Below are positions 28,885 to 40,332 of a stretch of DNA of 64,000 nucleotides, in pieces. The stretch's first letter is position 1; the number at the start of each line of letters is the position of its first letter. A model generated the notes under the pieces. That model saw only the letters and a list, made by a program, of their open reading frames with translations, was not told where the DNA came from and did not search any database. The position numbers and the translations under genes are program-made. Where the stretch lies: NCBI RefSeq assembly GCF_000299935.1, contig NZ_AMRL01000003.1, positions 62,001 to 126,000 on the forward strand, written 5' to 3'. This DNA is from Oceanibaculum indicum P24 (GTDB lineage: Bacteria > Pseudomonadota > Alphaproteobacteria > Oceanibaculales > Oceanibaculaceae).

Positions 28885-30108
28885 ATGCTCTATCATCTCT
28901 ATGAAATGCAGCAGGCTGCGCTCGCTCCGGTGCGCATCATGACGGATGCAACACAGGCGCTGATGCGCAATCCCTGGGTACCGCTCAGCTATACCCAGTT
29001 CGGACAGTCGCTGGCCGCCGGCGCGGAAGTGCTGGAAGGTGTCATCAAGCAGCGCAACAAGCCGGACTGGCGCCTGGACACGACCCAGATCGACGGCAAG
29101 ACCGTACCTGTAACGCAGGAAATCGCGCTCAGCCTGCCCTTCTGCGACCTGCTGCATTTCAAGCGTGATGCCAAGGGGCTGAACGATCCGAAAACCCTCG
29201 TCGTCGCGCCGATGTCCGGCCATTACGCCACGCTGCTGCGCGGCACGGTCCAAGCCCTGCTGCCGGGCCACGACGTCTATGTGACCGACTGGCACGATGC
29301 GCGGGACATCCCCGAATCCGAAGGTGCCTTCAACCTCGATTCCTATATCGATTATCTGATGCAGTTCATGCGGCATCTGGGCCGCGACACCCATCTGATC
29401 GCGGTCTGCCAGCCGGCGCCGATGGTGCTGGCTGCGGTTTCGCTGATGGCCGCCGCCGACGACAAGGCGCAGCCGCGCAGCATGACCCTGATGGGCGGGC
29501 CGGTCGATACGCGCGCCAACCCGACCATCGTGACCCGCTTCGCCGAGAACCGCTCCATGGACTGGTTCGAGCGCCATGTGGTGGCCACCGTACCGCTGCA
29601 TTATCCGGGTGCCGGGCGGCGGGTCTATCCGGGCTTCATGCAGGTCGGCGCCTTCATTTCGATGAATCCGGGCCGCCACTTCCACGCCCATATCGACCAG
29701 TTCAAGCATCTGGTCCGCGGCGATGGCGAATCGGCCGACGGGCACCGGCGCTTCTACGACGAATATCTGACCGTGCAGGACATCTCCGCCGACTTCTACC
29801 TCGATACAGTGGAGCATGTGTTCAAGCTGCACTCGCTGCCGAAAGGCACGATGCGCTGGCGTACCCAGCGCGTCGATCCGGCCGCCATCACCAAGACCGC
29901 GCTGATGACCATCGAGGGTGAGCTGGACGACATCTCCGCCCCCGGCCAGACGCTGGCGGCGCATGATCTGGTGAAGAACCTGCCGAAATCCATGCAGGAG
30001 CATTACCTGCAGAAGGGCGTTGGCCATTACGGCATCTTCAACGGCCGCCGCTGGCGCGAGCAGATCATGCCGCGCATCGCCAGCTTCATCCGCAAGCACG
30101 AAAAGTAG
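28885..30108 (+). CDS. phaZ: Intracellular polyhydroxybutyrate depolymerase
   Basis: The 407-residue protein belongs to the PhaZ1-type intracellular depolymerases, which mobilise granule-bound PHB. The fold is alpha/beta hydrolase with a cysteine nucleophile, Cys175 in AVCQPAPM, in place of the usual serine. The N-terminus MLYHLYEMQQAALAP is characteristic. The catalytic histidine is probably in GVGHYGIFNGRRW near residue 380. There is no signal peptide. It is preceded by a long non-coding leader and transcribed alone. It implies that the organism stores PHB. Confidence 0.93.
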   Translation: MLYHLYEMQQAALAPVRIMTDATQALMRNPWVPLSYTQFGQSLAAGAEVLEGVIKQRNKPDWRLDTTQIDGKTVPVTQEIALSLPFCDLLHFKRDAKGLNDPKTLVVAPMSGHYATLLRGTVQALLPGHDVYVTDWHDARDIPESEGAFNLDSYIDYLMQFMRHLGRDTHLIAVCQPAPMVLAAVSLMAAADDKAQPRSMTLMGGPVDTRANPTIVTRFAENRSMDWFERHVVATVPLHYPGAGRRVYPGFMQVGAFISMNPGRHFHAHIDQFKHLVRGDGESADGHRRFYDEYLTVQDISADFYLDTVEHVFKLHSLPKGTMRWRTQRVDPAAITKTALMTIEGELDDISAPGQTLAAHDLVKNLPKSMQEHYLQKGVGHYGIFNGRRWREQIMPRIASFIRKHEK

Positions 30109-30117
30109 GAAACCCGG

Positions 30118-30825
30118 CTACTCGGCTGCCTGGCTGGTCTCCGAAGCGGCCTCATAGGCCTGCTTCAGATGCTGGTACTTGTTGCGCAGGTGATCGGCCA
30201 GCAGCCGTGAGAGCAGTGCCGAGTCGCGCTTCACCAGCGCGTCCAGGATCAGGTCATGCTCCGCGACCGCATGGTCCCAGCGCTCGCCGGACAGGTTCGC
30301 CATATAGCGGAAGCGCCGGATGCGCCCGTTCAGCGCGCCATAGGTCTGCGCCAGCGTGGCATTGCCGGCCCCTTCAATGATCGCCAGATGGATCGCCTGG
30401 TTCAGCTTGAAGTAGCTGTGCAGGTCGGCGCGCGCGTGGCAGGCCAGCATCTCGTAATGCAGCGCCTTCACCTCGGCGATGGCCACATCGGTCATCCGGC
30501 TGGCCGCCAGCGATCCCGCCAGCCCTTCCAGCGCCACCATAACCTCGACGATCTCGTCCAGCTCCACCACGGTCAGCGGGGCGACCACGGCCCCCCGGTT
30601 GGGCAGCAGTTCCACCAGCCCTTCCGAGGCCAGCACTTTCAGCGCCTCGCGCAGCGGCGTGCGCGAGATGCCGAAGCGTTCGCACAGCACACGCTCCGGC
30701 ACGCGCTTGCCGGGTTCCAGCTCGCCCTCGACGATCAGGTCGCGCAGCCGCTCCACCACCTCGTCATGCAGCGAGCGTCGGGCAATGCGCTGTTCGGTTA
30801 CGGTATCGGATGCCAGCAGGGCCAT
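30118..30825 (-). CDS. GntR/FadR-family transcriptional regulator
   Basis: The 235-residue protein has an N-terminal winged helix (LHDEVVERLRDLIVEGELEPG; LCERFGISRTPLREALKVLASEGLVELLPNRGAVV) and a C-terminal all-helical FCD ligand domain (EIVEVMVALEGLAGSLAA; HLAIIEGAGN; EHDLILDAL). FCD regulators usually sense a carboxylic acid. It lies eight bases after the FAD/Fe-S dehydrogenase gene on the same strand. Palindromes built on TTGCATGCA in that gene's promoter and in the divergent aminotransferase promoter are its likely operators. Confidence 0.9.
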   Translation of the reverse strand: MALLASDTVTEQRIARRSLHDEVVERLRDLIVEGELEPGKRVPERVLCERFGISRTPLREALKVLASEGLVELLPNRGAVVAPLTVVELDEIVEVMVALEGLAGSLAASRMTDVAIAEVKALHYEMLACHARADLHSYFKLNQAIHLAIIEGAGNATLAQTYGALNGRIRRFRYMANLSGERWDHAVAEHDLILDALVKRDSALLSRLLADHLRNKYQHLKQAYEAASETSQAAE

Positions 30826-30833
30826 GACGCATC

Positions 30834-33791
30834 CTACTCCGTCGCCAGTGCCATTTCGAGCACCCGGACGACATGCACCGCCTCGCGGCTGGCACCGTCA
30901 TGGATCTGATGCCGGCACGACGTGCCGTCGGCAACCAGAATGACGCCCGGCTCCGCCTTGCGGATGGCCGGCAGCAGCGACGCCTCGGCCATCTTCATCG
31001 AGACCTCGTAATGCTCCGCCTCATAACCGAAGGCGCCGGCCATGCCGCAGCAGGAACTGTCGATGGTCTCCACGGTCAGGCCCGGCACCAGCTTCAGCAC
31101 CTGCTGCACCGCCGGCATGGCGGCGAAGGCCTTCTGGTGGCAATGGCCATGCAGCAGCGCCTTGCTGGCCGTGATCGGCTTCAGCTCGAGCTTCAGCCGC
31201 CCGGCGCGCGCCTCGGCGGCCAGGAATTCCTCCAGCAGCATGGCGCGCTCCGCCAGCGCATCGGACTCGGCGCCGGGGTGCATCGATCGGAACTCGTCGC
31301 GCAGGGTGAACAGGCAGGAAGGTTCCAGCCCAAGCACCGGCACGCCGGCCTCGATATAAGGTTTCAGCGCGTCCAGCATGCGCCGCGATTCCGCCTTCGC
31401 CTCATCGACCAGGCCAGCCGCCAGGAAGGTACGCCCGCAGCACAGCGGCCGATCCTCCGGCGGGGCGGCGAAATGCACCCGATAGCCGGCAGATGTGAGC
31501 ACCCGAACCGCTGCGCGCGCATTCTCCACATCGAAATAGCGGTTGAAGGTGTCCACGAACAGCACGACGGCAGTGCCATCCGCCGGCCCGGTGGACAGGC
31601 CCGGCGCGCGGAAGGCATCGCTGCGCCATTGCGGCAGGCTGCGCTTCGCGGACAGGCCCAGCAGCTTTTCCGTCAGGAAAGGCAGGCCAGGTATCCGGTC
31701 GCGCAGATTCATCAGCGGCGCCAGCTTGGCGGCGATGCCGGCATAGCGCGGCAGGAAGGCGACCAGCCGGTCCTTCAGCCTGAGTCCGTGCTTCTGGCGG
31801 TAATGATGCAGGAACTCGATCTTCATCTTCGCCATGTCAACGCCGGTCGGGCATTCGCGCTTGCAGCCCTTGCAGCCGACGCACAGATCCATGGTCTGGT
31901 ACATCTCGTCCGACAGCAGCGCGTCTGGGCCGAGCTGCCCGGACAGGGCGAGGCGCAGGGAATTGGCCCGGCCGCGCGTCACATCCTTCTCCTCGCCGGT
32001 GGCGCGGAAGCTGGGGCACATGACGCCGGGGTCCGCCTTGCGGCAGGCGCCATTGTTGTTGCACATCTCGACCGCACCGGAGATGCCGCCCCACTCGCTC
32101 CAGTCCAGCGCCGTCTCAAGCGGCTGGATGGCATAGCCCGGCTTGAAGCGGAACAGGTTGCGGTCGTCCATCTTCGGCGCACGGACGATCTTGCCGGGGT
32201 TCATCATCCCGTCGGAATCGAACTCGTCCTTCACCTCCTCGAAGGCGCGGACAATGCGGCTGCCATACATCGGCTCGTGGAACTCGGAACGCACGATGCC
32301 GTCGCCATGCTCGCCGGAGTGACAGCCCTTGTATTCGCGCACCATGGCGAAGGCTTCCTCGGCGATGGCGCGCATATTCTTGGCACCCTCCTCGGTCTTC
32401 ATGTTCAGGATCGGACGCACATGCAGGGTGCCGACCGAGGCATGGGCGTACCAGGTGCCCTTGGTGCCGTATTTGGTGAAAATGTCGGTCAGCCGCTCCG
32501 TATAGTCGGCTAGGTCCTCCAGCGGCACCGCGCAATCCTCGATAAAGGAGACGGGTTTGCCGTCGCCCTTCATCGACATCATGATGTTCAGCCCCTGCTT
32601 GCGGATTTCCCAGATTTCGCTCTGGAATTTCGGGTCGGCGGCCTCCACCACGGCGCCGGGGAAGCCCAGATCGCCCATCAGCTCGACCAGGCGGGCGAGG
32701 CCGCGCAGCTGCTCGTCCCTGTCCTCGCCGGCGAATTCGACCAGCAGCAGCGCGTCCGGCTCGCCGACGACGAACTTGTCCACCGTCTCGCGGAAGGCCG
32801 GGATGTCGCGCGCCAAATCGATCATCGTGCGGTCCACCAGCTCCACCGCCGTCGGCCCCAGCTTCACGATATGCTGCGTCGCCTCCATCGCCTTGCGGAA
32901 GGTCGGGAAATGGCACACGCCCAGCGCCTTGTGCGGCGGGATCGGCTGCAAGTCCAGCTGGATGCGCTGGAACCAGCCCAGCGTGCCCTCGGAGCCAACC
33001 AGCAGGCTAGCCATATTGTGGCCTTCCGGGCGGATCGTCTCGATATTGTAGCCGCCGATCTTGCGCAGGATATCGGGAATGCGGGCCTTGATCTCGTCGG
33101 CCTCGCGCAGGCCCAGCGCGCGCATCTTCTGCACGATCTCCAGATAGCGCGGATTACCCTCCAGCCCGTCCAGATTGCCGGGGATCGGGCCGAACAGCGC
33201 CTGCGTGCCATCGGCCAGCACCGCCTCGATGGCGCGGACATTGTGCACCATGTTGCCATAGCGCAGGGAGCGCGAGCCGCAGGAATTATTGCCGGCCATT
33301 CCGCCGATGGTGGCGCGGCTGCCGGTGGAGATATCGACCGGGAAGAACAGGCCGGTGCCCTTAAGCTGCTTGTTCAGCCGGTCCAGCGTGATGCCGGGAT
33401 GCACCCAGGCAGTGCGCTCTTCCGGGTTGACCGAGATGACGTCATTCAGGAAACGGCTGTGGTCGATGACCAGCGCCTCGTTCACCGTCTGCCCGCATTG
33501 CGAGGTGCCGCCGCCGCGCGGCAGCACCGGCACCCCCTCCTCCCGCGCGATGTCCAGCGCACGCAGAACATCCGCCTCGCTGCGCGGCACGACAACGCCC
33601 AGCGGTTCGATCTGGTAGATCGAGGCGTCGGTCGAATAACGCCCGCGGCTGAACCCGTCGAACAGCACGTCGCCCTCGACCTCCCGCCGCAGGCGCGCAG
33701 CGAGGCCGCTGTCGCCCGGCGCGATACGGGCCTTGCGGGAAGAAGCGGCAGTCTTGGATGCCGGCTTGGCGGCAGGCTGGATGGCGGACAC
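30834..33791 (-). CDS. FAD-linked and Fe-S-containing 2-hydroxyacid dehydrogenase (YdiJ-like)
   Basis: The 985-residue protein fuses three modules. First is a PCMH-type FAD-binding domain (about residues 60-290; VPVLPRGGGTSQCGQ, STGSRATIGGMAGNNSCGS). Second is an FAD-linked oxidase C-terminal domain (to about 570). Third is a GlpC-like part with the ferredoxin motif CVGCKGCKRECPTG near residue 640 and two cysteine-rich CCG motifs (LCCGRTF near 784, SCCGMAGAFGYE near 915). Such fusions oxidise D-lactate, D-2-hydroxyglutarate or similar acids and feed electrons to quinone. The substrate is unknown; it is probably what the neighbouring TRAP system imports. Confidence 0.88.
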   Translation of the reverse strand: MSAIQPAAKPASKTAASSRKARIAPGDSGLAARLRREVEGDVLFDGFSRGRYSTDASIYQIEPLGVVVPRSEADVLRALDIAREEGVPVLPRGGGTSQCGQTVNEALVIDHSRFLNDVISVNPEERTAWVHPGITLDRLNKQLKGTGLFFPVDISTGSRATIGGMAGNNSCGSRSLRYGNMVHNVRAIEAVLADGTQALFGPIPGNLDGLEGNPRYLEIVQKMRALGLREADEIKARIPDILRKIGGYNIETIRPEGHNMASLLVGSEGTLGWFQRIQLDLQPIPPHKALGVCHFPTFRKAMEATQHIVKLGPTAVELVDRTMIDLARDIPAFRETVDKFVVGEPDALLLVEFAGEDRDEQLRGLARLVELMGDLGFPGAVVEAADPKFQSEIWEIRKQGLNIMMSMKGDGKPVSFIEDCAVPLEDLADYTERLTDIFTKYGTKGTWYAHASVGTLHVRPILNMKTEEGAKNMRAIAEEAFAMVREYKGCHSGEHGDGIVRSEFHEPMYGSRIVRAFEEVKDEFDSDGMMNPGKIVRAPKMDDRNLFRFKPGYAIQPLETALDWSEWGGISGAVEMCNNNGACRKADPGVMCPSFRATGEEKDVTRGRANSLRLALSGQLGPDALLSDEMYQTMDLCVGCKGCKRECPTGVDMAKMKIEFLHHYRQKHGLRLKDRLVAFLPRYAGIAAKLAPLMNLRDRIPGLPFLTEKLLGLSAKRSLPQWRSDAFRAPGLSTGPADGTAVVLFVDTFNRYFDVENARAAVRVLTSAGYRVHFAAPPEDRPLCCGRTFLAAGLVDEAKAESRRMLDALKPYIEAGVPVLGLEPSCLFTLRDEFRSMHPGAESDALAERAMLLEEFLAAEARAGRLKLELKPITASKALLHGHCHQKAFAAMPAVQQVLKLVPGLTVETIDSSCCGMAGAFGYEAEHYEVSMKMAEASLLPAIRKAEPGVILVADGTSCRHQIHDGASREAVHVVRVLEMALATE

Positions 33792-33870
33792 GGGATTCGA
33801 GCTTTCCAGTTATATGTGGAAGGAGGCGAGAGTTGCGCGCTTCGCGGTGGAACGCAAGCGTCTCCGGGAA

Positions 33871-33898
33871 AGCCTAGCATTTTGCATGCAAAATTCAA
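33871..33898 (-). promoter_or_regulatory. Promoter and palindromic operator of the FAD/Fe-S dehydrogenase gene
   Basis: On the minus strand TTGAAT (33898-33893) and TAGGCT (33876-33871) are 16 bp apart. A perfect 16-bp palindrome, ATTTTGCATGCAAAAT (33879-33894), fills the spacer. A bound repressor would block RNA polymerase. Confidence 0.6.
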
Positions 33899-33993
33899 CG
33901 CGCGCCCTGGTGGCCCTGACACGAATCCTGAAATGCAGGCAATTTCTTTGAAAATGCTGCACCGCAGAACAACCCCACACCGGCAATGGCCGC

Positions 33994-34028
33994 TTGACAG
34001 ACCCCGCCAAATTGCATGCACTATGCAA
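33994..34028 (+). promoter_or_regulatory. Promoter and operator of the aminotransferase-TRAP operon
   Basis: A consensus -35 box TTGACA (33994-33999) is followed, 17 bp later, by TGCACT. The -10 region is covered by TTGCAT-GCACT-ATGCAA (34012-34028), which contains the same TTGCATGCA core as the palindrome at 33879. This divergent pair suggests one regulator for both transcripts. Confidence 0.55.
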
Positions 34029-34095
34029 ATCAACCGCAATCGGGTTGCCCTTCGATACCCCATGGGCACCCACTCAGACAAAGAAGACAGCGATC

Positions 34096-35289
34096 ATGAC
34101 CTACCGCTCCGGCCGCCACTTCCTGCAGATCCCTGGCCCGACCAATGTGCCTGACCGGGTGCTGCGCGCCATCGATGCGCCGACCATGGACCATCGCGGG
34201 CCGGAATTCGGTGTGCTGGGCAAATATGTGCTGGAAGGTCTGAAGCCGATCTTCAAGACGAAGAACCCGGTGATCATCTTCCCGGCCTCGGGTACCGGCG
34301 CGTGGGAGGCAGCATTGGTCAACACCCTGTCGCCCGGCGACAAGGTGCTGATGGTGGAAACCGGCCAGTTCGCCACCCTGTGGCAGGAGATGGCGGACCG
34401 CCTCGGCTTGACCGTCGAGTTCGTTGCCGGTGACTGGCGCAGCGGCGTCGATCCGAAGCTGATCGAGGCCAAGCTGAAGGAAGACAAGGGCCACACGATC
34501 AAGGCGGTCTGCGCCGTCCATAATGAGACCTCGACCGGTGTGACCAGCCGCATCGGGCTGATCCGTAAGGCGATCGACGCCGCTGGCCATCCGGCGCTGT
34601 ATCTGGTCGATACGATTTCCTCGCTGGCTTCCATCGACTACCGGCATGACGAATGGGGCGTGGATGTCACCGTCTCCGGCTCGCAGAAGGGGCTGATGCT
34701 GCCGCCGGGCCTGTCCTTCAACGCGATCAGCGACAAGGCCATCGCCGCCTCGAAGAAGGCCGGCCTCACCAAATCCTACTGGGACTGGGCGCCGATGCTG
34801 GCAGCCAACGAGAAGGGCTATTTCCCCTACACGCCAGCGACCAACCTGCTGTACGGGCTGAAGGAAGCCATCGACATGCTGATGGAGGAAGGGCTGGACA
34901 ATGTGTTCGCCCGCCACGACCGCCATGCCGAGGCGACGCGCCGCGCGGTGCGCGGCTGGGGGCTGGAAATCCTGGCGAAGAACCCGGAGGAATATTCCAG
35001 CGCGCTGACCGCTGTGCTGATGCCCGAGGGGCACAATGCGGATGCGCTGCGCAAGGTGATCCTGGACAAGTTCGACATGTCGCTGGGCGCCGGCCTCGGC
35101 AAGGTCGCCGGCAAGGTGTTCCGCATCGGCCATCTGGGCGATTTCAACGACCTGACGCTGGCCGGCACCCTGTCGGGCGTCGAGATGGGGCTGAAGCTGG
35201 CCGGCGTGCCAATCAAGGCAAGCGGCGTGGCCGAGGCTCTGGCTTATCTGGGCGAGGCGAACACCGGGGCCAAGAGCGCGGCAGCCTGA
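34096..35289 (+). CDS. Serine--glyoxylate aminotransferase
   Basis: The 397-residue PLP enzyme of class V transfers the amino group of serine (or alanine) to glyoxylate, giving hydroxypyruvate and glycine. The family start GRHFLQIPGPTNVPDRVLRA and the PLP lysine Lys198 in VTVSGSQKGLM are clear. ATG 34096 was chosen because it gives the normal N-terminus; a longer frame runs through the promoter. It opens the operon with the TRAP genes, so the imported compound may yield glyoxylate or hydroxypyruvate. Alanine-glyoxylate activity cannot be excluded. Confidence 0.92.
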   Translation: MTYRSGRHFLQIPGPTNVPDRVLRAIDAPTMDHRGPEFGVLGKYVLEGLKPIFKTKNPVIIFPASGTGAWEAALVNTLSPGDKVLMVETGQFATLWQEMADRLGLTVEFVAGDWRSGVDPKLIEAKLKEDKGHTIKAVCAVHNETSTGVTSRIGLIRKAIDAAGHPALYLVDTISSLASIDYRHDEWGVDVTVSGSQKGLMLPPGLSFNAISDKAIAASKKAGLTKSYWDWAPMLAANEKGYFPYTPATNLLYGLKEAIDMLMEEGLDNVFARHDRHAEATRRAVRGWGLEILAKNPEEYSSALTAVLMPEGHNADALRKVILDKFDMSLGAGLGKVAGKVFRIGHLGDFNDLTLAGTLSGVEMGLKLAGVPIKASGVAEALAYLGEANTGAKSAAA

Positions 35290-35416: not shown

Positions 35417-36409
35417 ATGAGGAAACTGTTCATCGCGGGCGCCCTGCTGGGTGGTGGGCTGATAGCCGGTGGGCTGGCGGCGCCGGCCCAGGCACAGATG
35501 GAGCTGAAATTTGGCCATGTCGGCGGGCCGGGCTCGCTGTTCGAGATTTCGGCCAACGAGTTCGCCCGCCGCGCCAACGAGAAGCTGGGCGGCAAGGCGA
35601 AGGTCGTCACCTTCGGCTCCAGCCAGCTCGGCGGCGACAAGGAGCTGCTGCAGAAGCTGCGGCTCGGCACGGTGGAGTTCGCCCTGCCCTCGACCGTCAT
35701 GTCGTCCGAGGTCGATGCGTTCGGCATGTTCGAGATGCCGTATCTCGTGAAGAACCGCGAGCATATGAAGAAGATCGAGAAGGAGGTGGTGTGGCCCTCC
35801 CTCGCGCCGATGGCCGAGGCCAAGGGCTACAAGATCCTCGCGGTGTGGGAGAACGGTTTCCGCCACATCACAAACAATGTCCGCCCCATCGTGAAGCCGG
35901 AAGACCTGAAGGGCGTGAAGCTGCGCACGCCGAAGGGCAAGTGGCGCGTGAAGATGTTCCAGAGCTATGGCGCCAACCCGTCGCCGATGGCGCTGTCGGA
36001 AGTGTTCGTCGCCCTGCAGACCGGCGTGATGGACGGGCAGGAAAACCCGCTGACGCAGATCTACTCCACCAAGTTCCAGGAAGTGCAGAAGTACCTGTCG
36101 ATGACCGGCCATGTCTACACGCCGGCCTACATCGTGGCAGGCGTGCGCAAGTGGGAATCGCTGCCGGAGGATGTCCGCAAGGCGCTGAGCGAGGCTGCCA
36201 TGGAAACCCAGCCCTACGTCTATGAGCAGGCGGCGAAGCTGGAGGACGACCTGCTGGCCAAGATCAAGGCCGCCGGTGTGCAGGTGAACGAGGCCGATAA
36301 GGACGCCTTCATCGCTGCCAGCAAGGAAGTCTATGCCGAATTCGGCAAGGATGTGCCGGCCGGTGGCAAACTGGTCGATCAGGCCGTTGCCCTTGGGGCC
36401 GGATTGTAA
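35417..36409 (+). CDS. dctP: TRAP transporter substrate-binding protein (DctP family)
   Basis: The 330-residue periplasmic protein has a signal peptide of about 27 residues (ending APAQAQ). The DctP fold follows, with the RTPKGKWRVKMF motif containing the arginine that binds the ligand carboxylate, and the ALSEVFVALQTGVMDGQENP motif. A carboxylic acid substrate is therefore expected. A GGAGATGGAGGAAACGTC ribosome site precedes the ATG. A strong intrinsic terminator after the gene should leave more DctP than membrane subunits. Confidence 0.92.
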   Translation: MRKLFIAGALLGGGLIAGGLAAPAQAQMELKFGHVGGPGSLFEISANEFARRANEKLGGKAKVVTFGSSQLGGDKELLQKLRLGTVEFALPSTVMSSEVDAFGMFEMPYLVKNREHMKKIEKEVVWPSLAPMAEAKGYKILAVWENGFRHITNNVRPIVKPEDLKGVKLRTPKGKWRVKMFQSYGANPSPMALSEVFVALQTGVMDGQENPLTQIYSTKFQEVQKYLSMTGHVYTPAYIVAGVRKWESLPEDVRKALSEAAMETQPYVYEQAAKLEDDLLAKIKAAGVQVNEADKDAFIAASKEVYAEFGKDVPAGGKLVDQAVALGAGL

Positions 36410-36424
36410 CCCCCCTACCAGAAC

Positions 36425-36458
36425 GCCCTGTCGGCTGACGCCGGCAGGGCTTTTTTTT
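36425..36458 (+). terminator. Intrinsic terminator between dctP and dctQ
   Basis: GCCCTGTCGGC (36425-36435) pairs with GCCGGCAGGGC (36440-36450) through one G-U pair around a TGAC loop, and eight T residues follow. It lies within the operon, so it probably acts as a partial terminator that favours dctP mRNA. Confidence 0.85.
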
Positions 36459-36501
36459 GCCCGCCCCGCCTCCCTTTTCCGCCAAACAAGGATCGCCCGC
36501 T

Positions 36502-37023
36502 TTGTTCGCCGCCTTGAGAACAGTCTTTGAAAAGACCCTGACGGCTTTCGTCATCTTCCTGCTCGCCAGCCTGACGGTGATCATCGTCATGGGCGTCACC
36601 TACCGGAAAATGGGCTGGTCGCTGGTCTGGTACGACGAGGTCGCCTCGATCATGCTGGCCTGGCTGACCTATTACGGGGCCTCGCTGGCGGCGCTGAAGC
36701 GCGCCCATATCGGCTTTCCCGGCCTGGTGAACGCAATGCCGCCGCAGCTGCGGATCACCGCGGTGCTGTTCGCCGAGGCCTGCGTCATCGGCTTCTTCGC
36801 CATCCTCGCCTGGTTCGGCTGGGAGGTGCTGCAGATCTTGCAGGGCGACACGCTGGTCACCCTGCCGAACGTGACCACCGCCTTCACCCAGTCGGTCATC
36901 CCCATCGGCGGCGTGCTGTTCATAATGGCACAGCTGTTCAGCCTGCCCGAGGTGCTGGCGCAGGCGCGCGGCGGCGGCATCGTCGATCATGAGCAGAAGC
37001 AGCTTGAGGAGGCGCTGCGATGA
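36502..37023 (+). CDS. dctQ: TRAP transporter small membrane subunit (DctQ family)
   Basis: The 173-residue inner-membrane protein has four predicted helices and the DctQ pattern (VTYRKMGWSLVWYDEVASIMLAWLTYYGASLAALKRAHIGF). There is no ATG at the 5' end. I place the start at TTG 36502 because AAGGA lies nine bases upstream and helix 1 follows; a TTG at 36457 would fall inside the terminator T-run. Its stop overlaps the dctM start (ATGA). Confidence 0.87.
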   Translation: MFAALRTVFEKTLTAFVIFLLASLTVIIVMGVTYRKMGWSLVWYDEVASIMLAWLTYYGASLAALKRAHIGFPGLVNAMPPQLRITAVLFAEACVIGFFAILAWFGWEVLQILQGDTLVTLPNVTTAFTQSVIPIGGVLFIMAQLFSLPEVLAQARGGGIVDHEQKQLEEALR

Positions 37024-38303
37024 TCGTCGCCGTCATGTTCGTGGCGCTGGTCGCCCTCATCCTGCTGAACGTCCCCATCGCCATCTCGCTCGGCATCGTC
37101 GCCATGTCGGCGATGATCTATTCCTCGGGCATGGATGCGATGCTGAATGCGGCGCTGGTGCTGTTCAACGGCGCCACCAGTTTCCCGCTGCTGGCGATCC
37201 CGCTGTTCATCCTGGCCGGCGCCATCATGAACTCCTCCAGCCTGTCGCGGCGGCTGATCGCCTTTGCCTCGGCGCTGTTCGGCTTCGTGCGCGGCGGCCT
37301 GGCCATGGTGAATATCGGCACCTCGCTGTTCTTCGCGGAAATCTCCGGCTCGGCGGTGGCCGATGTCGCCGCCATGGGCTCGATCCTGATCCCGGCGATG
37401 AAGAAGAAGGGCTACCCGAAGGAGTTCGCGGCCGCCGTTACCTCCTCCTCGGCGACGCTGGCGGTCATCATCCCGCCCTCGATCCCGATGATCCTCTATG
37501 CCGTGATGGCCGATGCGTCGGTGGTGCAGATCTTCGTCGCCGGCATCGTGCCGGGCATCCTGGGCGGCGGTGGCATGATGGGCCTCGCCTACTGGTATGC
37601 CCGCCGCTACAACTACCCGGTCGAGGAAGTGTTCAGCCTGCGGCGCCTGAAGGAAACCTTCCGCGACGCCGCCTGGGCCTTCCTGCTGCCGCTGATCATC
37701 CTGGGCGGCATCTTCGGCGGCTGGGTCACGGCGACCGAAGGGGCTGGCCTGGCCGTGCTGGCGGCGCTGTTCATCGGCGGCGTGATCTATCGCGAACTGG
37801 ACGTTCGGCACCTCTACAATTCGATGATGGAAGGCGCGATCCAGACCGCCGTCGTCATGCTGCTGGTCGCGACCTCCGCCCTGCTCGGCGTCTATCTGAC
37901 GGAACAGCAGATTCCGCAGCAGCTGGCCCTGTGGCTCTCCTCCATCACCAGCGACAAGTACGCGGTGTTGGCGATCCTGAACGTGTTCTTCCTGATCATC
38001 GGCCTGTTCCTGCACTCCGCCGCCGCGATCATCCTGGTCGTGCCCATCGTCATGCCGCTGGTGAATGCGGTCGGCATCGATCCGGTGCATTTCGGCCTGG
38101 TGGTCACGCTGAACCTGGGCATCGGCCAGCAGACCCCGCCGGTCGCCAGCGTGCTGATGACCTCCTGTTCCATCGCCAAGGCGGATATGTGGGCGGTGAC
38201 CCGGGTGAACCTGCCCTTCATCGGGGTTCTGCTCGCCATCCTGATGCTGGTAACCTATGTGCCGGCCGTGCCGATGGCGCTGGTCGAGCTGTTCTACCGT
38301 TGA
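37020..38303 (+). CDS. dctM: TRAP transporter large membrane subunit (DctM family)
   Basis: The 427-residue integral membrane protein is the sodium-coupled transport subunit, with about twelve helices. Typical motifs are LAIPLFILAGAIMNSS, FFAEISGSAVADVAAMGSILIP and VTLNLGIGQQTPPVASVL. It forms a complex with DctQ and receives substrate from DctP. The start overlaps dctQ by four bases. The CoA-transferase gene follows after 20 bp with its own AGGAAA site. Confidence 0.94.
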   Translation: MIVAVMFVALVALILLNVPIAISLGIVAMSAMIYSSGMDAMLNAALVLFNGATSFPLLAIPLFILAGAIMNSSSLSRRLIAFASALFGFVRGGLAMVNIGTSLFFAEISGSAVADVAAMGSILIPAMKKKGYPKEFAAAVTSSSATLAVIIPPSIPMILYAVMADASVVQIFVAGIVPGILGGGGMMGLAYWYARRYNYPVEEVFSLRRLKETFRDAAWAFLLPLIILGGIFGGWVTATEGAGLAVLAALFIGGVIYRELDVRHLYNSMMEGAIQTAVVMLLVATSALLGVYLTEQQIPQQLALWLSSITSDKYAVLAILNVFFLIIGLFLHSAAAIILVVPIVMPLVNAVGIDPVHFGLVVTLNLGIGQQTPPVASVLMTSCSIAKADMWAVTRVNLPFIGVLLAILMLVTYVPAVPMALVELFYR

Positions 38304-38323: not shown

Positions 38324-39544
38324 ATGCCCGCACGGCAGAAGGGGCCGCTGTCCGGCCTGAAAGTCATCGAACTGGCGCACATCATGGCAGGGCCGGTCTG
38401 CGGCCTGATGCTGGCTGACATGGGTGCCGACGTGGTGAAGGTGGAGAAGGTGCCGGGCGGCGACGATGCCCGCCGCTTCGTGCCGCCCTTCATCGGGGAC
38501 GAGCCCGCCGCCTACATGATGATGAACCGCAACAAGCGGGGCGTCGCCCTCGACTTGAAGACCGAGACCGGCAAGCAGGCGGTGCGCCGGCTGCTGGAGG
38601 GCGCCGATGTGGTGATCGAGAATTACCGCATGGGCACGATGGAGAAGCTGGGCCTCGGCTATGAGGAGCTGCGCAGGATCAATCCCGGCCTGATCTATTG
38701 CGAGATTTCCGGCTTCGGCCGCACCGGCCCCTATGCCGACCGCGGCGGCTTCGACCTGATTGCCCAGGGCATGAGCGGCCTGATGAGCATCACTGGCGAG
38801 GGCGAGGGCCGCCCGCCGGTGAAGGTCGGCGCGCCGGTCACCGACATCACGGCGGGCATCATTGCCGCCATGGGCGTGCTGGCCGCCTATACCAGCCGGC
38901 TGCAGACCGGCCAGGGCCAGAAGGTCGACACCTCGCTGTTCGAGGCCGGCATCGTCCATACCTACTGGCAGTCGGCGATCTGCTTCGCCACCGGCGAGAC
39001 GCCGCAGCCCATCGGCTCCGCCCATCCGCTGAACGCGCCCTACCAGGCCTTCCCGACACAGGATGGCTGGATCAATATCGGTGCCGCCAACCAGGCGAAC
39101 TGGGAGCGGCTGCTGAAGGCCATCGAGGCGCCGCAACTGAACGACGACCCGCGCTTCTCCAGCAATGCCAGCCGGATGACCAACCTGCCGGCGCTGGTCG
39201 AGATCCTGAACCCGATCTTCCGGACCCGCCCCACATCTGACTGGCTCGCCCGGCTGGAAGCCGTCGGCCTGCCCGCCGGCCCGGTCCTGACCATCCCGGA
39301 AATGCACCGCGACCCGCAGGCGCTGGCGCGCGGCGTCATCACCGAAGTCGAGCATTCGACGCTCGGTGCGGTGAAGACCATCGGCTTGCCAATCGCCTTT
39401 TCCGGCACGCCCGGCGGGCCGCAATCTGGCGCCCCGGTCTATGGCGAACACACCGCCGAAGTGCTTAGCGAGGCCGGCTACAGCGAGGCGGAAATCGCAG
39501 AGATGCTGGCCAGCGGCGCGGCACGCGGGACCGCGACAAGCTGA
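38324..39544 (+). CDS. CaiB/BaiF-family CoA-transferase
   Basis: The 406-residue family III CoA-transferase moves CoA between carboxylic acids. It begins GPLSGLKVIELAHIMAGPVCG, carries the nucleotide-side motif NRNKRGVALDLKTETG and has the conserved aspartate Asp144 in GRTGPYADRGGFDLIAQ. It is the last gene of the aminotransferase-TRAP operon, so it probably activates or recycles the imported hydroxy- or dicarboxylic acid. The pair of acids cannot be deduced from sequence. Confidence 0.9.
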   Translation: MPARQKGPLSGLKVIELAHIMAGPVCGLMLADMGADVVKVEKVPGGDDARRFVPPFIGDEPAAYMMMNRNKRGVALDLKTETGKQAVRRLLEGADVVIENYRMGTMEKLGLGYEELRRINPGLIYCEISGFGRTGPYADRGGFDLIAQGMSGLMSITGEGEGRPPVKVGAPVTDITAGIIAAMGVLAAYTSRLQTGQGQKVDTSLFEAGIVHTYWQSAICFATGETPQPIGSAHPLNAPYQAFPTQDGWINIGAANQANWERLLKAIEAPQLNDDPRFSSNASRMTNLPALVEILNPIFRTRPTSDWLARLEAVGLPAGPVLTIPEMHRDPQALARGVITEVEHSTLGAVKTIGLPIAFSGTPGGPQSGAPVYGEHTAEVLSEAGYSEAEIAEMLASGAARGTATS

Positions 39545-39618: not shown

Positions 39619-40332
39619 ATGACTACCACTCCCTTCCTGTTCGTCGTGACCGGCCATACCGACCTCGGCGACACCGGGCGGAAGACCGGCTTCCATTTCG
39701 AGGAGCTGAGCACCCCCTACTACATCCTGCGCGACGCGGGCTATGAGGTGATCTTCGCCTCGCCCGCCGGTGGCGAGGTGAAGGCCGATCCCGGCTCGCT
39801 GAAGCCGCAGGGCGAGAATGCCGATTCCGTTGACCGCTTCCTGGCCGACGAGAAGGCAATGCAGGCGCTGAAGACCACGATACGCACCGATGCCGTCAAG
39901 GCGGTGGAGGTTTCCGGCATCTACCTGCCGGGCGGCCACGGCACCATGTGGGACCTGCCGCAGGACACAGCGCTGGCAAAGCTGGTGGGCGAACTGGACG
40001 CCGCCGGCAAGCCGGTTGCCGCCGTCTGCCATGGCCCGGCGGGCCTTGTTGCCGCCAAGCGGCCGGATGGCACGCCGGTGGTGAAGGGCCGGCGCGTGAA
40101 CAGCTTCACCGATGCCGAGGAACGCAAGGTGGAGCTGGAGGATGTCGTGCCCTTCCTGCTGGAATCGAAGCTGAAGGAGCTTGGCGCCCAGTTCGAGAAT
40201 GCCGGCCTGTTCGAGGCGCATGTCGCCCGCGACGGCAATCTCATCACCGGGCAGAACCCGGCCTCCGCGAAACGGCTGGGTGAGGCCCTGCGCAGCGCCC
40301 TGCTGGCAAACGCCCGCCAGGCTGCGGAATAA
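39619..40332 (+). CDS. DJ-1/PfpI superfamily protein, Hsp31-like
   Basis: The 237-residue cytoplasmic protein has the class I amidotransferase-like fold. The nucleophile elbow is AVCHGPAGL, with the cysteine near residue 140 followed by histidine, and the acidic residue is in the GIYLPGGHGTMWDL region. The long form with LGDTGRKTGFHFEELSTPYYIL is that of Hsp31/HchA-related proteins, many of which are glyoxalase III or protein deglycases. An AAGGAGG ribosome site is well placed. It converges on the hydratase gene with no gap. Confidence 0.88.
   Translation: MTTTPFLFVVTGHTDLGDTGRKTGFHFEELSTPYYILRDAGYEVIFASPAGGEVKADPGSLKPQGENADSVDRFLADEKAMQALKTTIRTDAVKAVEVSGIYLPGGHGTMWDLPQDTALAKLVGELDAAGKPVAAVCHGPAGLVAAKRPDGTPVVKGRRVNSFTDAEERKVELEDVVPFLLESKLKELGAQFENAGLFEAHVARDGNLITGQNPASAKRLGEALRSALLANARQAAE

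Follow-up and report, generated by a model that had tools for sequence, protein, structure and literature searches.

Paired palindromes in a divergent promoter region of Oceanibaculum indicum as predicted operators of a VanR-group GntR regulator

In a 64,000-nucleotide stretch of the Oceanibaculum indicum P24 genome, referred to here as the window, two related palindromes lie between a dehydrogenase unit and an aminotransferase run that point away from each other, and the locus raises the question of whether both are operators of the gntR gene encoded beside them, and what the regulator would do there. A sequence-only reading had proposed that a single GntR repressor holds both promoters and releases both transcripts when a carboxylate ligand binds. 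The divergent region spans 304 bp (33792-34095). On its minus-strand side, the gene for an FAD/Fe-S 2-hydroxyacid dehydrogenase-like protein of 985 aa (30834-33791) comes first and gntR (30118-30825, minus strand, 235 aa) lies downstream, which bears out the placing of the GntR/FCD gene in the same locus. The plus-strand side is a collinear run of a class-V aminotransferase (34096-35289), whose nearest solved relative is annotated as serine--glyoxylate aminotransferase, the TRAP transporter genes dctP (35417-36409), dctQ (36457-37023) and dctM (37020-38303), a CaiB-type CoA-transferase (38324-39544), and a DJ-1/PfpI family protein (39619-40332) that closes the run. Tail-to-tail with gntR is a polyhydroxyalkanoate depolymerase gene (28885-30108), an arrangement kept in the congener L060.

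The regulator matched PF00392 with 70.6 bits and PF07729 with 88.7 bits, both above the cut-off, and thus belongs to the FCD subfamily of GntR proteins. Its AlphaFold2 model (pLDDT 89.7) has six C-terminal helices, as in the VanR group, and N142, H146, H190 and H212, which we take to be the metal-binding residues, are nearly invariant in 26 sequences and correspond to the VanR metal/carboxylate site of Asn/Asp plus three His. From the FCD domain, one would expect the ligand to be a carboxylate. The equivalog models for PhnR (TIGR03338; 123.8 bits, 271.5 required) and for GlcC, LldR and CsiR (69, 66 and 73 bits against curated cut-offs of 301, 311 and 218) did not claim the protein.

Both palindromes were found where the sequence-only reading had put them. 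Predicted operator 1, ATTTTGCATGCAAAAT, occupies 33879-33894 with a core TTTTGCATGCAAAA at 33880-33893, and predicted operator 2, TTGCATGCACTATGCAA, occupies 34012-34028; the string TTGCATGCA is common to both (33882-33890 and 34012-34020). Judged from their letters, the two sites are different in kind, a point that the earlier reading overlooked: site 1 is a strong palindrome extended by imperfect flanking half-sites to TAGCATTTTGCATGCAAAATTCAA (33875-33898), and site 2 is a weak core, AATTGCATGCACTA, with an extra half-site ATGCAA. The half-sites beside site 1, TAGCAT and ATTCAA, recur in many relatives. Dinucleotide shuffling of the 304-bp divergent region, repeated 3000 times, produced a perfect palindrome of 16 bp in 26 shuffles, and TTGCAT-N5-ATGCAA or a double occurrence of TTGCATGCA in none (0/3000 each). 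The 14-mer core of site 1 has one exact match in the genome (3,949,817 bases), the runner-up having 2 mismatches, and TTGCATN5ATGCAA likewise has one exact match genome-wide. Compared with the FadR-type operator TKGT-N2/3-ACMA, TTGC-AT-GCAA has the matching spacing of 2 with GC in place of GT, and the relatives include GTATAC centres.

Relatives of the GntR were collected from named alpha- and betaproteobacteria and from further genomes, taking in part of the gntR matches. An alignment of the divergent region from four congeners contained two long invariant or near-invariant blocks, one being site 1 and the other TTGACA plus site 2. In the first sample, the aminotransferase gene was divergent from gntR or the dehydrogenase in 40 of the 41 loci holding it (two of them duplicates). 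Ranking 8-mers by frequency with no prior motif, once those interpreted as coding sequence at the start of the aminotransferase gene had been removed, placed TTTTGCAT, TGCATGCA and GCATGCAA among the commonest; they occur in 26, 19 and 20 of 38 divergent regions, where 0.6-1.5 would be expected. These and the following matrix counts leave out the duplicates L061 and L062, and also L033, where the aminotransferase is not divergent. The weight matrix built from these regions reads TTTTG(C/A/T)AT(G/T/A)CAAAA, and at a loose threshold of 7.5 bits it found at least one site in 37 of the 38 regions and at least two in 34. At 13 bits, 14 of 16 held-out loci had a site, compared with a shuffle mean of 0.23 and maximum of 2. 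Sites of at least 16 bits were about 213 times denser upstream of module genes (87 in 57,680 bp) than elsewhere in the loci (8 in 1,132,260 bp), a ratio that partly reflects training data. Over the full sample, a site of at least 16 bits was present in 176 of the 189 gntR loci linked to the aminotransferase, equal to 38 of 47 clusters, and the cluster count is the one to trust since a few genomes remain doubled (e.g. L046/L261, L047/L262, L031/L272, L036/L132). This count, like those for spacing and residue 45 below, excludes the short duplicates L001-L014 and L082-L099, the weak hits L052-L059, and L180, L184, L189, L191, L192 and L198, which come from the same genomes as longer loci. Some linked gntR loci (L069, L101, L102) had no site. 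The palindrome system, as seen by comparison, is real, broadly conserved and ordinary in kind. A chance origin, for which one might cite that the 10-mer TTGCATGCAA alone with one mismatch allowed is no commoner in the window than chance predicts (2 found against 2.18 expected), is contradicted by the shuffles, the genome count, the congeners and the held-out loci, and with conservation having already refuted it we give it practically no weight.

Whether the conserved sites belong to this GntR can be judged from loci in which the genes have moved apart. A dehydrogenase gene with its own promoter has its own site in L114, L080 and L103, and so does an aminotransferase gene with its own promoter in L033. 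When the 300-bp upstream parts of aminotransferase genes were compared by linkage (within about 1.5 kb), a site was present in 17 of 19 genes with gntR close by, in 6 of 12 with only the dehydrogenase in the examined stretch (gntR being just outside this stretch in some of them, as in the window), and in 1 of 19 near neither, 17 of these 19 being more distant homologues with 47-56% identity. The close homologues in that last group, L299 (74%) and L326 (62%), were both without a site.

The sites also change with the protein. In FadR-type proteins, an Arg at the matching helix-turn-helix place correlates with the operator and contacts it, according to PMC4494728; by our reading of the alignment, residue 45 of the regulator, an Arg followed further on by a PNRG wing, would be position 28 of those proteins. 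A change of the site centre from C to A goes with a change of Arg45 to Lys, being found in 6 of 9 Lys clusters versus 4 of 42 Arg clusters (Fisher p 7.7e-4). At the level of sites, 11 of 16 were GAATTC-centred with Lys45, and 16 of 381 had A on both sides with Arg45; no site of at least 16 bits was found in 14 of 52 Arg45 clusters. Relatives linked to pdxA (L076, L078, L079, L081), which have Gly at position 45 and PSRG for PNRG, had no site of at least 14 bits. They form a sister GntR branch, divergent from pdxA and a tripartite tricarboxylate transporter, and their operator differs from the present palindromes.

We therefore consider that the palindromes are very probably operators, as predicted from sequence, of the locus's own VanR-group GntR, because in many alpha- and betaproteobacteria these palindromes accompany this set of genes, the sites follow relocated genes, and the site centre shifts with residue 45. 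The proposal of one regulator for both promoters is well supported in this respect, with the motif tracking the GntR across genomes, through rearrangements and with a DNA-contact residue. It is very improbable that some other regulator, for instance of the LysR type, binds the sites instead. The LysR-type pattern T-N11-A is present in TTGCATGCACTATGCAA, and sites occur in 12 of 42 gntR loci tied to neither aminotransferase nor caiB, so that the motif is not bound to one pathway; against this, the presence and the centre of the motif go with the GntR and its Arg45 or Lys45, and no second regulator was found among ten scanned genes of the locus. The genome has 10 further FCD genes, none of them with a site of at least 16 bits nearby, and cross-talk with these regulators was rejected as a candidate, only weak look-alikes having been found. 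One of these genes (L349 position 698, G000:C19:48997) has CTTTGTATGCAAAG upstream at 15.5 bits, likely a related, distinct operator.

The position of each site relative to its promoter bears on what the bound regulator would do. On the minus strand, TTGAAT-N16-TAGGCT (33898 down to 33871) brackets site 1, with the proposed -35 (TTGAAT) of the dehydrogenase promoter at 33893-33898, overlapped by one of the flanking half-sites, and the proposed -10 (TAGGCT) at 33871-33876, 16 bp away. By eye, a 16-bp spacer holding the site could likewise be read in L060, L015, L016, L021, L022 (TATTTT) and L063 (TATATC). On the plus strand, the -35 (TTGACA) of the aminotransferase promoter at 33994-33999 is invariant in 4/4 congeners, and site 2 starts 12 bp past it, so that any -10 at 16-19 bp falls under operator 2. 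The earlier placing of site 1 in the dehydrogenase spacer and of site 2 over the aminotransferase -10 is carried by the recurring geometry and the invariant -35, respectively, whereas a strict sigma-70 scan of the intergenic stretch returned 0 promoters and the aminotransferase -10, as judged by eye, is poor (3/6 matches).

PmiR of Pseudomonas aeruginosa has a role in sensing 2-methylisocitrate. Among solved structures it (7xp0, 7xp1) is the best sequence match to the regulator, with 98 bits, and chains of Atu1419 of Agrobacterium fabrum (VanR group, PDB 6z74) are among the best Foldseek matches of the GntR model. Atu1419 shares the FCD domain of six helices, with 27-29% identity in structural alignment. 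PMC7797058 describes it as a repressor whose two palindromes, an identical 10-bp pair, share a single intergenic region; as here, the first covers a -10 and the second sits within a -35/-10 spacer. It differs in that its site is ATGTATACAT where here it is TTGCATGCAA, and it serves hydroxycinnamate degradation with methylenetetrahydrofolate as effector. DhdR of Achromobacter denitrificans is, like the present protein in its predicted role, a GntR repressor beside a D-2-hydroxyacid dehydrogenase gene, and excerpts of PMC8651671 place its site over a -35. Unlike here, they give DhdR the operator GTTATCAGATAAC, a single protected region and an operon without an aminotransferase, and DhdR was rejected as a match because its operator differs. 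A search of open PMC text found, among the matches listed, no description of these sites or of this gene set. The kind of switch is already known, and the present predicted operators appear to be new as far as the literature search reached.

In the mechanism that we propose, a GntR dimer would use Arg45 and the SRTP helix to read each TTGC half-site. Bound to site 1, it would fill the -35/-10 spacer of the dehydrogenase-gntR promoter, and at site 2 it would cover the -10 region of the aminotransferase-TRAP-CoA-transferase promoter; both transcripts, and hence that of the regulator itself, would be held down until released by a small carboxylate, for which a 2-hydroxy- or 2-oxoacid from the pathway is the probable candidate. 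GlcC is an activator, and it is possible in principle, but in our judgement unlikely, that the present GntR also activates rather than represses. The relevant precedent is Ms0535, a VanR-like GntR of Mycobacterium smegmatis that protects CCTTGCATGCATTCTTGCATGCAAGG in a footprint; according to PMC4609117, this footprint contains TTGCATGCA twice, as in our locus, and Ms0535 is reported to activate a permease gene, with its two palindromes, unlike here, abutting in 26 bp. Site 1 between -35 and -10 and site 2 over the -10 region, however, are polymerase-blocking positions, and two members of this structural group whose sites lie at -10 or -35/-10, Atu1419 and AlkR, act as repressors. Site placement together with the Atu1419 precedent would accordingly indicate repression. 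Comparison of genomes supports the identity of the sites, their link to the GntR and their link to both transcription units; binding of the GntR, repression over activation, and the ligand are what we infer. Taken as a whole, the reading in which both palindromes are operators of the locus's own GntR, repressing both transcripts until a carboxylate releases them, has a high probability in our estimation.

As to the pathway, the dehydrogenase groups with D-lactate, glycolate and D-2-hydroxyglutarate enzymes, and 2-hydroxyacid oxidation followed by transamination is the natural reading of the gene set. Naming the ligand from curated families failed, as no cut-off was reached by the regulator, the dehydrogenase (YdiJ D-2-hydroxyglutarate dehydrogenase profile, 527 bits against 1350 required) or the aminotransferase (BhcA profile, 480 bits against 650 required). 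Elsewhere in the genome lies a GlcD-like gene (534.5 bits against a cut-off of 567.9), with another GlcD-like stretch, perhaps GlcE, behind it. Given this gene, a canonical glycolate oxidase was rejected as a missing partner, and glycolate is therefore not assured as the substrate of the dehydrogenase. The comparison assigns predicted operators, targets and a DNA-contact residue to a widespread, previously undescribed regulator, whose position beside genes for a 2-hydroxyacid dehydrogenase and an aminotransferase of the glyoxylate type gives a handle on the pathway and the inducer.

Beyond what the sequence-only reading had claimed, the two sites keep a helically phased spacing across the family. 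In the first sample the Rayleigh p was 2e-4, falling to 0.06 under conservative grouping, and for that reason the sample was enlarged and control distances were added. In aminotransferase-linked loci, the site-to-site distance was then phased at 10.5 bp whether the loci were clustered at 75% identity (27 clusters, R 0.64, jitter p < 2.5e-4) or at 60% identity (9 clusters, R 0.70, p 0.008), with a best period of 10.3-10.4, where it should be read that spacings of related clusters are not independent. Spacings gather, though not without exception, at 43-44, 52-54, 62-67, 73-78, 94-96, 105-107 and further such values. No phasing (p >= 0.07) was seen in these loci for four control distances (site to aminotransferase, aminotransferase to partner, far site to aminotransferase, and partner site to partner), and independent spacing changes along the tree favoured whole turns (n 16-24, p about 0.02).

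This phasing suggests dimer-dimer contact or looping. An extension of the repressor reading, in which dimers on both operators touch as a tetramer or short loop so that the pair acts as one unit and the promoters are locked together, is a possibility that we hold tentatively. It is favoured by the phasing of the sites and not of the controls, by the tendency to whole-turn changes, and by the Atu1419 tetramer, seen in the text of PMC7797058 looping two palindromes 190 bp apart. The weaker p of the conservative grouping and the non-independence of related clusters count against it, as do the spacings in the window's own genus (130, 130, 136 and 142 bp), which do not fit whole turns neatly, and the single-site loci L041 and L068. 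For the family, we put the chance that two bound dimers touch at about even. The broader proposal, that a widespread VanR-group regulator keeps its operators on one helix face by whole-turn insertions and deletions, as a general dimer-pair or looping switch at divergent promoters, seems to us slightly less probable than its opposite; if true, Atu1419 would be one case of a common mode and not an exception. Family-wide phasing makes general DNA looping by GntR/VanR repressors a testable question.

A CaiB-linked GntR branch (L129, L130, L141, L142, L149, L152 and others) has these palindromes as a pair, mostly 62 bp apart, without an aminotransferase gene.
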